In this document: positions 54,472 to 57,203 of the stretch, in pieces
Layout of the letters: every line of letters starts with the position of its first letter
Position numbering within the stretch: the first letter of the stretch is position 1
Assembly: GCF_018070575.1 (NCBI RefSeq)
Contig: NZ_JAGPXN010000010.1
Coordinates: forward strand, 186,001-250,000
Length of the DNA: 64,000 bases
Source of the DNA: Micromonospora sp. C31
GTDB taxonomy: Bacteria; Actinomycetota; Actinomycetes; Mycobacteriales; Micromonosporaceae
Direction: 5' to 3'
Translations under genes and position numbers: made by a program
Notes under the pieces: generated by a model
What the model was told of the DNA's origin: nothing
The model's database searches: none
Seen by the model: the letters and a program-made list of their open reading frames with translations, nothing else

Positions 54472-55581
54472 GTGACGAGCACCGAGGAGCGACTGGCCGC
54501 GATCCGCGGCGGCGTGCCACCGAGGCGGCACAACGCGCGCACCATCGCCGCCCTGACCGGCAACCCGGGCTGCACCCGGCGGGCCGTGCTGGACGGCGCC
54601 GGGGTGGACAAGCCGAAGCTGGCCGAGCTCATCGGCTTTCCCGCCCGGTTCGGGCAGTCCCGGTTCGCCATCACCCGGGGCAACGCGTTCGAGGCGCAGG
54701 TCAAGGCCGACGGCGGGGCCGAGCTGCTGCGGCTGGTCGCCGAGCGGTTGGGCGTACCGGTGCCGGCGGCGGCGAGCTGGACGGACCTCGGCGACGGCGT
54801 CGAGGACGACACGGCCGCCCGGCACCGGCGTTCCGCCGCGCTGCTGACCGACGCCACCCCCGGTGGGGCCGACGACATCGCCGCGCTGTTCGACCACCCG
54901 CTGCTCGGCCTGGACGTCGCCGGCCGTCGGGTGCACCTGGAGCCGGACCTGGTCGCCGCCCGGCTCGCCGGCCGGTTCCACGTCGTCGAGATCAAGTCGT
55001 TCCCGGTGGTCGACGGCCAGGCCGACCCGGCCAAGGTGTCCGCCGCCGCGATCCAGGCCGCCGTCTACGTGCTGGCCCTGCGTGAGCTGCTCGCCGCCGC
55101 CGGCCACGATCCGGAGCTGGTGTCGCACGACGCGGTGCTGGTCTGCCCGCGCGACTTCGCCAACCAGCCGGTGGCCAGCCTGGTCGACGTACGCAAGCAA
55201 CTGCTGGTGCTGCGCCGCCAGCTCGACCGGATGGCCCGGGTCGACGCGCTGCTGGCCGCCGTGCCCGAGGACTTCACCGCCGACCTGACGGCCGAGCCCA
55301 CCGCCCTGCTCGCCGCGTTGTCGGGGGTGCCGGCCCGCTACGCGCCCGACTGCCTGGCGGCGTGCGAGCTGGCGTACTTCTGCCGCGACGAGGCGCGCGG
55401 GCACACCGGGGCGCTGGGCCGGCCGGTCCGCGAGGCGCTCGGCGGGGTCGCCGAGGTCGACGCGGTGCTGGCGCTGGCCGCCGGTGAGCGCGCTGCGGAG
55501 CCCGGGCAGGAGGAGGCCGCCGCGCTGCTGCGGGCCGCCGCCCGGCTGCGCGCCGACGCCCTCGCCGGGACCCCCGCATGA
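54472..55581 (+). CDS. RecB/Cas4-like iron-sulfur nuclease
   Basis: 369 residues, GTG start. PD-(D/E)XK nuclease core: Glu74 in TRGNAFEAQ, Asp159 in HLEPDL, Glu173 and Lys175 in VVEIKSF, and the RecB-family motif Gln195-x3-Tyr199. One cysteine at 34 (NPGCTRR) and three near the C-terminus (294, 298, 304) give the C-xn-C-x3-C-x5-C pattern that binds a 4Fe-4S cluster in Cas4 and AddB. Thus a probable Fe-S exonuclease or endonuclease. No cas genes or helicase are nearby. Its stop overlaps the next gene by 4 bp, so the two products are likely to work together. Confidence 0.85.
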   Translation: MTSTEERLAAIRGGVPPRRHNARTIAALTGNPGCTRRAVLDGAGVDKPKLAELIGFPARFGQSRFAITRGNAFEAQVKADGGAELLRLVAERLGVPVPAAASWTDLGDGVEDDTAARHRRSAALLTDATPGGADDIAALFDHPLLGLDVAGRRVHLEPDLVAARLAGRFHVVEIKSFPVVDGQADPAKVSAAAIQAAVYVLALRELLAAAGHDPELVSHDAVLVCPRDFANQPVASLVDVRKQLLVLRRQLDRMARVDALLAAVPEDFTADLTAEPTALLAALSGVPARYAPDCLAACELAYFCRDEARGHTGALGRPVREALGGVAEVDAVLALAAGERAAEPGQEEAAALLRAAARLRADALAGTPA

Positions 55582-57203
55582 GTACGCTGCGCGCGTTCGC
55601 CCGGGCCCAGGCGCTCGCCGCCGGCGTGGCCCAGCCGGTCGCCACCGTCCGGCACCTGCACCTGGCCCAGCGACCGCTGGTGCTGGTGCCGCTGGCGATG
55701 GCCGGCGAGGCGAACGCGCCGCTGGCGGCGCTGGTCGGCGACGCCCCGGACGCGGCGCGGCTGCTGATCGTGCCGCAGCCCCGCAACCGCGACCAGCGGT
55801 TCGCGTTCGCGGCCGAGCTGGCCGGGATCGTGCTGCCCTACCTGGACGGGTTCCGGGGCGTGGCCGAGGCGGTGCCGGTCGACCGGGGCCGCGACGTGCG
55901 CTACCGGTACGTCGACGCTCCGCAGCTGCTGGTGCCCAACCCCGCCGGGATCACCTTCCTGCGGCTGCTGGGCCGCTCCACCCGTTTCCGTCGCCCCGAC
56001 GGGGAGTATCCGGTGCACCCCTCGGTGCCGGTGCTCGGGCGTTGGCTGACCTTCTTCGCCGAGCGGGCCGAACACCCGGGCTCGTCGGCGCTGCTGGCGA
56101 TGACCGACGCGCTGAGCCTGCACTGGGCCACCGGGCAGAGCGTGGTGGAGGACCTGCACCTGCCGGCGCTGCTCGGCTGGATCGACCCGCCCACCGGGCT
56201 CACCGGCGCCGAGGCGGCGGTCCGGGCCGAGGACCCGGCGACCTGCCCACCCGCCGGCCCGGCCACCGACCCGGACTTCGACAACCAGCGGCTCGCCCCG
56301 GCCATCGACACGTACGCCGCCGCCGAGGACGACGCGGTCGCGCGCGCCGGGGCGTACGCGGAGCTGGAACGGTTGTTGCGCGACCAGCTAGAGCCGACCT
56401 GGGAGCTGATGTGGCGGGGCGTGGGGCTGCTGCGCGGCCTGCCACCGGGCGCCCGGGTGGCCGGCCGGTGGGACGGCGACAAGGACGCCTTCACCGGCTA
56501 CGCGGAGCACGTCGACTCCGGTGGTGCGCCGCAGCCCCGCCGGGACGGTGCGGTCGCCGCCGCGCAGCGGCTGCACCGGCTGGAACGTTCCCTGACCTCA
56601 TACGCGGTGCAGCGCGCCTACGACGACCCGCTGGTGATGGCGGAGCACCGGCTGAGCGGGGAGGCGTTCGTCGGCGAGGTGACCCTGGCCGACCCGAAGC
56701 GGGTGGACGACACGGGCAGGCGGCCGGTGCTGCGCCCCCGGATCCAGCTCGTCACCACCGAGCCGGTGCCGATGCCGCTCGGCGCGACGCTGTACTCGCC
56801 GGCCCGGCCGGCGCAGAAGGCCCGGGTGGTCTTCGTGACCCCGGTGAGCGACGGCAGGACCGAGGTGGTGCTGGAGCTTTCCGGCGGAATGGGGCGGGGG
56901 CTGACCGCACCGCCGGGCAGCGTGCCCGAGGTGGGGGAGCGGCTCTGCTACACGACCCTGTCGGACGCGTTCATGCCGGCGGGGGCGTTCCCCGCCGTCG
57001 AGGAGACGCCGTGGACGCACGGGGGACCGCCGGTGCCGACGCTCGTGCCGTCCGGCTCCGCTCCCGACGCCGAGACCGGCGCGGGGTCCGCCCCCGACGC
57101 CGAGACCGGCTCGGGCTTGGTCCTCGGCGCCGCTGCCGGGGACCGGGCGGTCGCGGCCGTGTCGTTCCCCGTCGACGGCGACCCCGGTGAGGACTGGGCC
57201 TGA
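55578..57203 (+). CDS. 541-residue protein of unknown function coupled to the nuclease
   Basis: 541 residues, ATG at 55578 overlapping the nuclease stop. Soluble, no signal peptide, no Walker motif or other catalytic signature that I can see. N-terminal domain about 1-200 (AQRPLVLVPLAMAGEANAPLAALVG; IVPQPRNRDQRF), a helical middle (about 235-345), a beta-rich segment (about 390-480; VVFVTPVSDGRTEVVLEL) and a low-complexity tail with two SAPDAETG repeats. The beta-rich segment is the kind of fold seen beside helicase or nuclease subunits, but this is a guess. It is the main unknown of the window. Confidence 0.75.
   Translation: MSTLRAFARAQALAAGVAQPVATVRHLHLAQRPLVLVPLAMAGEANAPLAALVGDAPDAARLLIVPQPRNRDQRFAFAAELAGIVLPYLDGFRGVAEAVPVDRGRDVRYRYVDAPQLLVPNPAGITFLRLLGRSTRFRRPDGEYPVHPSVPVLGRWLTFFAERAEHPGSSALLAMTDALSLHWATGQSVVEDLHLPALLGWIDPPTGLTGAEAAVRAEDPATCPPAGPATDPDFDNQRLAPAIDTYAAAEDDAVARAGAYAELERLLRDQLEPTWELMWRGVGLLRGLPPGARVAGRWDGDKDAFTGYAEHVDSGGAPQPRRDGAVAAAQRLHRLERSLTSYAVQRAYDDPLVMAEHRLSGEAFVGEVTLADPKRVDDTGRRPVLRPRIQLVTTEPVPMPLGATLYSPARPAQKARVVFVTPVSDGRTEVVLELSGGMGRGLTAPPGSVPEVGERLCYTTLSDAFMPAGAFPAVEETPWTHGGPPVPTLVPSGSAPDAETGAGSAPDAETGSGLVLGAAAGDRAVAAVSFPVDGDPGEDWA

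Follow-up and report, generated by a model that had tools for sequence, protein, structure and literature searches.

A Cas4-like nuclease pair of Micromonospora as the probable part of a helicase–nuclease split over three genes

Introduction

What does a Cas4-like nuclease do when its gene overlaps that of a large protein with no recognisable motif, and does such a pair act alone? The question is raised by two genes, here called A and B, in a stretch of 64,000 nucleotides from Micromonospora sp. C31 (contig NZ_JAGPXN010000010.1, positions 186,001 to 250,000; G000:C2:186001-250000), which we refer to as the window and which is part of a 6.45 Mb genome of high guanine-plus-cytosine content. A first-pass annotation, made from the sequence alone, had taken the pair for a two-gene nuclease module with DNA processing or defence among its candidate roles. 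The observation itself is confirmed and its interpretation partly supported: both roles are kept, but the module is larger than two genes, since it also includes a helicase gene, C, joined by a further gene, D, in most linked copies. We propose, with a probability of about 0.72, that A, B and an unlinked C make up one ATP-driven helicase–nuclease of the Dna2/TM0106 type split over three genes, that copies in which C is linked to A and B are directed against invading DNA, and that the resident copy of the window serves the same end or repair.

Results

Gene A (54472..55581, + strand; GTG start, 369 amino acids) encodes a Cas4/RecB/Dna2-type PD-(D/E)XK nuclease, probably an iron–sulphur (Fe-S) protein, and gene B (55578..57203, + strand; ATG start, 541 amino acids) follows it so closely that its start overlaps the stop of A in a 4-base ATGA, as had been annotated. 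A scan of genome contigs yielded 121 confirmed relatives of A, 80 of which were kept for locus analysis. B stands directly after A in 79 of these 80 loci, the exception (L032) being a contig edge, and the annotated coupling of a Cas4-like nuclease to B is upheld; the spacing is -4 in 45 of the 79 relatives and lies between -20 and +60 nucleotides in 73, with ATG or GTG kept as the start of A in nearly all relatives. For both A and B the ratio of non-synonymous to synonymous substitution rates (Ka/Ks) is 0.21-0.41 (six pairs). The closest named relatives of the locus are Micromonospora records, and a phylum-wide sample has B in 12 of its 296 genomes, spread over 4 of its 198 genera. Neither protein matches Pfam, PADLOC, NCBIfam or PHROGs at E ≤ 1 or a PDB sequence at E ≤ 5, and profile searches of both against the PDB led to no identification; two low-E profile matches, to an engineered and a de novo protein, were short-repeat matches and were counted as chance. 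Plasmid records gave three matches, one of them an 11.9 Mb record. Because phage records gave 0 matches and viral contigs 0 relatives, carriage by phages is unsupported.

The RecB-type active site predicted for A is borne out by an alignment of 33 sequences, in which D159, E173, K175, Q195 and Y199 are invariant, as are the cysteines C34, C294, C298 and C304. The catalytic stretch (D159, E173-x-K175, Q195-x3-Y199) spans 54946..55068 (+ strand), the codon of C34, the first putative Fe-S ligand, lies at 54571..54573 (+ strand), and the remaining putative ligands, C294-x3-C298-x5-C304, are encoded at 55351..55383 (+ strand). In a broader set of 31 sequences, including a relative of 30% identity, the four cysteines, D159, Q195 and Y199 are again invariant, and E173 and K175 are kept at 90% or more. 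The four cysteines stand as annotated, but their spacing needs correction: with C-x3-C-x5-C it exceeds by one residue the C-x2-C-x5-C seen in L231, a TM0106 protein. In the loci examined, neither a separation of A from B nor a loss of residue conservation was seen. One paralogue of A (L092, G246:C8) has lost E173 and K175; the same genome (G246) retains a second copy (L101). The AlphaFold2 model of A (predicted local distance difference test score, pLDDT, 90.8) has as its VIA-align ranks 1-4 the Cas4-complex chains 7mi4_A (Z 10.2, 198 residues aligned, root-mean-square deviation (rmsd) 4.7), 7mi5_A (10.1) and 8d3l_J (8.9) and EXO5 (8.8), with the nuclease parts of AdnA (7.7), Dna2 (6.8) and AddB (6.6) further down; the best Foldseek match is MGME1 (E 5.8e-4). 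Each Cas4/RecB nuclease feature tested is found in A, namely the catalytic D, E-x-K and Q-x3-Y, one N-terminal and three C-terminal cysteines, and the fold, and A is a predicted Cas4-like nuclease, very probably of the Fe-S kind. As the annotation had stated, no cas genes lie around it: PADLOC (1e-10) matched no cas model among the 56 other genes of the window, only four mad models, the rest of the genome not having been searched for cas.

In loci outside the window's clade, B is followed by a gene of about 450 amino acids, C. Its Pfam matches are AAA_11 (6.5e-10) and AAA_12 (6.1e-7), both over the cut-off, and UvrD (0.04), below it; its profile finds DNA2 as the best solved relative in the PDB (E 1.3e-12), then SMUBP-2 and UPF1, and, set against ten TM0106 proteins, aligns with their helicase part over 359 columns (hhalign 99.6%, E 3.9e-24). 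In the C of L086, an Actinomadura locus, only 52 residues precede the Walker A motif PPGAGKST, which leaves no room for a 1B domain or stalk; judged by its sequence, C is a bare helicase core, RecA1-RecA2. The genome of the window has a C at G000:C3:228091-229380, 76% identical to that of L086. If contig C2 and the reversed contig C3 adjoin, this gene would follow B on the same strand at a distance of about 31.5 kb. The earlier remark that no helicase is around is therefore true within the window and misleading beyond it, as the helicase partner is encoded elsewhere in the same genome. A further copy of C, fragmented and interrupted by stops, is present at G000:C36:570-1619 (L112).

What C is without is what the model of B resembles (mean pLDDT 84.4, falling below 70 after about residue 460 and below 50 for residues 489-541). 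Residues 357-462 (56646..56963, + strand) form, in the model, a beta barrel that resembles domain 1B of the Sen1/Senataxin helicases, with VIA-align Z values of 8.5, 8.5 and 8.4 against these 1B barrels (85-88 residues aligned, rmsd 2.6-3.0), and Sen1 is also the Foldseek rank 1 of the B model (E 0.037). Ahead of the barrel the model places long helices at 253-286, 294-313 and 325-349, as a stalk would be. Residues 31-345 (55668..56612, + strand) are predicted to adopt an RNase H-like fold akin to that of the exonuclease domain in archaeal family-B DNA polymerases: the alignment with 8s87 reaches Z 9.5 (rmsd 3.5, 182 residues aligned), and ranks 1-11 are all DNA polymerases. These values lie moderately above the background stated for VIA-align, where the best Z is typically 7-8 for models without a clear match, and the absence of a fold from its lists does not exclude that fold. 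Residues 490-541 (57045..57200, + strand) form a variable, disordered tail, and many relatives end near residue 490-505. The annotation of B as lacking a recognisable motif accordingly holds for sequence matches and not for the model, which resembles RNase H-like and 1B folds.

C lies adjacent to B in 35 of the 72 loci with enough downstream sequence, and overlaps it by 4 or 10 nucleotides in 24 of the 32 linked copies measured. In the other 37 loci, all Micromonospora or Micromonosporaceae records, C is not found within 4.7-8.8 kb downstream of B. Among 121 genomes of the same genus, B is present in 85 and C in the identical 85, the identity of the two lists being judged by eye. In a table of B–C distances from which gene fragments were left out, 75 pairs share a contig, 15 of them linked (<4 kb) and 60 far apart; in all 60 far pairs C is downstream of B on the same strand, at 10.7-151.7 kb (median 38 kb). 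A gyrB tree covering 120 genomes (G385, without a full gyrB, is absent from it) requires 5 changes for the resident set (77 genomes), as compared to a mean of 35.3 for shuffled labels (range 29-41), and the A-B and C of that set change together. The linked copies, present in 15 genomes, require 14 changes (shuffled mean 14.4, range 11-15), a pattern consistent with repeated horizontal gain.

Directly upstream of A, 32 of the 35 linked loci have gene D, of about 270 amino acids. D has no match in Pfam (E ≤ 0.1), PADLOC (E ≤ 0.1) or NCBIfam (E ≤ 0.01), and against the PDB only weak matches, the best at E 0.23. It is not found in the genome of the window and occurs in 15 of the 121 same-genus genomes, namely in G392 and in 14 of the 15 that have a linked copy. 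The D copy of that genome (G392:C21:18239-19027, in L196) does not adjoin A-B.

The surroundings of linked copies were surveyed through 155 neighbour genes from 26 loci, or 131 after removal of near-duplicates and of proteins longer than 1300 amino acids. PADLOC matches among 98 of these neighbours include type I methyltransferases and the Wadjet proteins JetA and JetC; the total of 262 models exaggerates the protein count, as a single methyltransferase matched 42 of them at E ≤ 1e-4, and 7 of the 98 match the mad3 model, which one control gene also matched. With Pfam, ResIII, SbcC, phage integrases and transposases are also seen. Known defence genes of the Wadjet, type I or type IV restriction kinds adjoin at least seven linked copies: JetC2 in L181, a type I methyltransferase in L182, a type IV enzyme in L184, JetC and JetA at 27% identity in L190 and L192, and Wadjet genes in two Streptomyces plasmid records (L284:2318-13844 and L285:7971-19676). 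In these two records, where B and D were assigned by sequence search and A and C from their position and annotation, about 150 nucleotides separate D-A-B-C from downstream genes annotated as DUF3375, DUF4194, an SbcC/MukB-like or ATP-binding protein, and JetD; in L285, sbcD and a divergent SMC-type ATPase are present as well. Between B and C, L050 has a GmrSD_N gene and L057 one of the same family, and genes of similar size occupy this position in other linked copies. The gene between B and C at L184:6917-7723 looks, by eye, like a RhuM-type gene.

Defence-related genes were also seen in the stretch between B and C of resident copies, of which we looked at examples only. In the genome of the window, the presumed interval holds a DarT gene and an Mrr-like type IV restriction gene (L253:2442-3685 in G000:C3), one gene from C; in L245 it holds DarG and a type IV restriction enzyme. 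Downstream of A-B, 1.4 kb past the end of the window (G000:C2:251411-256984; L252:8411-13984), is a gene for an 1857-amino-acid PDC-S37/Mokosh-like helicase, which matches PDC-S37 (2.9e-52), MkoC and MkoA. Just upstream of A, the window has a zinc-ribbon gene (PF17032, 53998-54231), whose cluster is present in 23 loci.

Discussion

We suggest that C would translocate on DNA as the motor, that B would add the stalk and 1B barrel that C is without, completing the helicase and connecting it to A, and that A would then cut the displaced single strand produced by unwinding. What the analysis shows directly is the order of the genes, their conservation and co-occurrence, their genomic context and the resemblance of the folds; complex formation by A, B and C is what we infer here, together with the biochemistry, direction, substrate and role of the assembly. 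As for D, a DNA-binding or control protein would be our guess. For linked D-A-B-C copies, the most likely target is the invading DNA of phages or plasmids, whilst the resident copy may have the same defence role or process DNA ends or flaps in repair. More tentatively, D-A-B-C could be an undescribed four-gene actinobacterial defence system that degrades linearised or unwound foreign DNA beside Wadjet and restriction, and in Micromonospora a defence-rich stretch (10.7-152 kb) may have grown within the B–C junction and forced it open, being now bracketed by a split enzyme whose subunits are kept or lost together.

Several observations weigh against a split helicase–nuclease of this type with a role in defence. 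The fold matches of B (Z 9.5 and 8.5) are moderate, none of its Foldseek matches falls under 0.001, and its barrel also resembles flavoprotein and ATP-synthase barrels (Z 6.6-7.2). A aligns with TM0106 weakly and short of significance (hhalign E 0.036, probability 1.4%), with Q-x3-Y and two of the three clustered cysteines in register and D, E and K out of it, and B shows no sequence similarity to TM0106 by hhalign. None of these loci was noticed to encode A, B and C as a single fused chain, though no search for such fusions was made. The shared presence of B and C reflects about five independent events and not 36, because the resident set needs only five changes on the tree. Both defence neighbours and horizontal spread are seen for linked copies only: the resident copy was inherited vertically and, among the 56 window genes searched with PADLOC, has no nearby defence model beyond the four mad matches, one member each. 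Even around linked copies, the other 33 of the 131 neighbours (L051, L199, most of L197 and a few others) gave 0 defence families. Given this vertical inheritance, the few defence neighbours in the window and these 33 neighbours, defence is not the sole possible role.

Dna2 serves DNA end resection and flap processing in eukaryotes, and A-B-C could likewise be a vertically inherited housekeeping repair machine for these tasks, its defence neighbours reflecting the mere horizontal spread of a useful repair module. The five tree changes of the resident copy and its conserved chromosomal neighbours speak for this, as do Actinomadura and Dactylosporangium copies that also sit in conserved neighbourhoods and the SbcC/SbcD-type genes adjoining some copies (by eye, Pfam and annotation). 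Yet 36 of the 121 same-genus species are without A-B-C, which is therefore dispensable, the linked copies are scattered over the tree like random labels, and both the restriction and Wadjet genes beside at least seven of them and the GmrSD_N-family genes between B and C in L050 and L057 fit poorly with housekeeping; we consider this explanation unlikely, if well short of negligible. That A and B are instead a stand-alone nuclease pair, with C an unrelated hitch-hiker, might be read from the window's clade, where the pair stands alone and C is out of reach of the downstream sequence in 37 of 72 loci. It is hard to reconcile with the presence of C in every same-genus genome that has B (85 of 85), with its constant side and strand in the 60 unlinked pairs on one contig, with its overlap with B in 24 of 32 linked copies and with the resemblance of B to the very 1B and stalk parts absent from C, and we hold it to be very improbable.

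A different question is whether the RNase H-like domain of B is itself an active DEDD-type exonuclease, giving the machine two nucleases. Its fold is like that of polymerase proofreading domains, and the acidic residues E44, E218 and D231 are invariant in 29 of 29 sequences. However, in the alignment of B, at the positions that we take to be those of the proofreading-exonuclease motifs, the first strand (VLVPLAMAGE) is without a D-x-E and the VPNPAG loop, the expected site of the second acidic residue, has no Asp. Because the canonical acidic residues seem absent at the first strand and the second motif, the domain as modelled is probably inactive and structural, and a second nuclease seems quite unlikely.

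Taken together, the split helicase–nuclease offers a function-level hypothesis for gene families without a match in the four family libraries searched, and would account for B as the part that a helicase, encoded tens of kilobases away, is missing. A helicase–nuclease type known as one chain would here be carried as separate subunits, with a contrast between mobile and resident forms within one genus. On plasmids, the arrangement D-A-B-C-jetABCD allows cooperation with Wadjet to be tested directly, as cleavage of a plasmid followed by its degradation.

Comparison with known systems

Cas4-like nucleases have been described as pairing with UvrD helicases of superfamily 1 (SF1) or COG1205/YprA helicases of superfamily 2 (SF2) in defence contexts (PMC5704561). 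The solo-Cas4, UvrD-Cas4 and YprA-Cas4 groups considered in passages of that paper have the Cas4 fold, the catalytic and cysteine residues and the pairing with a helicase in common with A, whereas their motors are UvrD or COG1205 and the one here is a Dna2/Upf1-type core (PMC5704561). The same passages do not describe a D-A-B-C set, and the main text mentions Streptomyces, Actinobacteria and Micromonospora 0 times (PMC5704561). Nor is the gene set described in the titles and abstract starts among the matches listed from open literature on TM0106, on Cas4 with a helicase in Actinobacteria, Streptomyces or Micromonospora, on Mokosh, on Argonaute-Cas4 and on Wadjet in Streptomyces, those for TM0106 dealing with corrosion.

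AddAB, AdnAB and RecBCD are multi-subunit helicase–nucleases, as is proposed here, and the nuclease folds of AdnA and AddB match A; their motors, however, are UvrD-like and fused to the nuclease, and C scores below the cut-off for UvrD. With Mokosh, C shares the helicase motifs of MkoA (9.5e-13), whereas the nuclease of that system is of the phospholipase D (PLD) type and A, B and D are without a PADLOC match.

The closest likenesses are to TM0106 (TIGR03491) and Dna2. The TM0106 family joins a RecB-like nuclease with RNase H-like and helicase parts; its helicase part is homologous to C, and, with A, B and C taken in sequence, the order of parts would be the same by predicted fold. TM0106 is, however, one open frame, mostly of 1130-1220 amino acids, in place of three or four genes, and neither A nor B matches TIGR03491 at E ≤ 1, the genome of the window being without a TIGR03491 match. 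Dna2, which has four cysteines around its nuclease, provides both the best solved relative of C and a nuclease fold that matches A, but is a single eukaryotic chain, whereas the genes here are separate (35 linked loci) and, in the window's clade, unlinked; it is not known to have a counterpart of the RNase H-like part of B. Because the TIGR03491 score is not reached and the nuclease part aligns weakly, and because the set is not a single chain, the whole of A-B-C belongs to neither TM0106 nor Dna2, though it would probably work like them.

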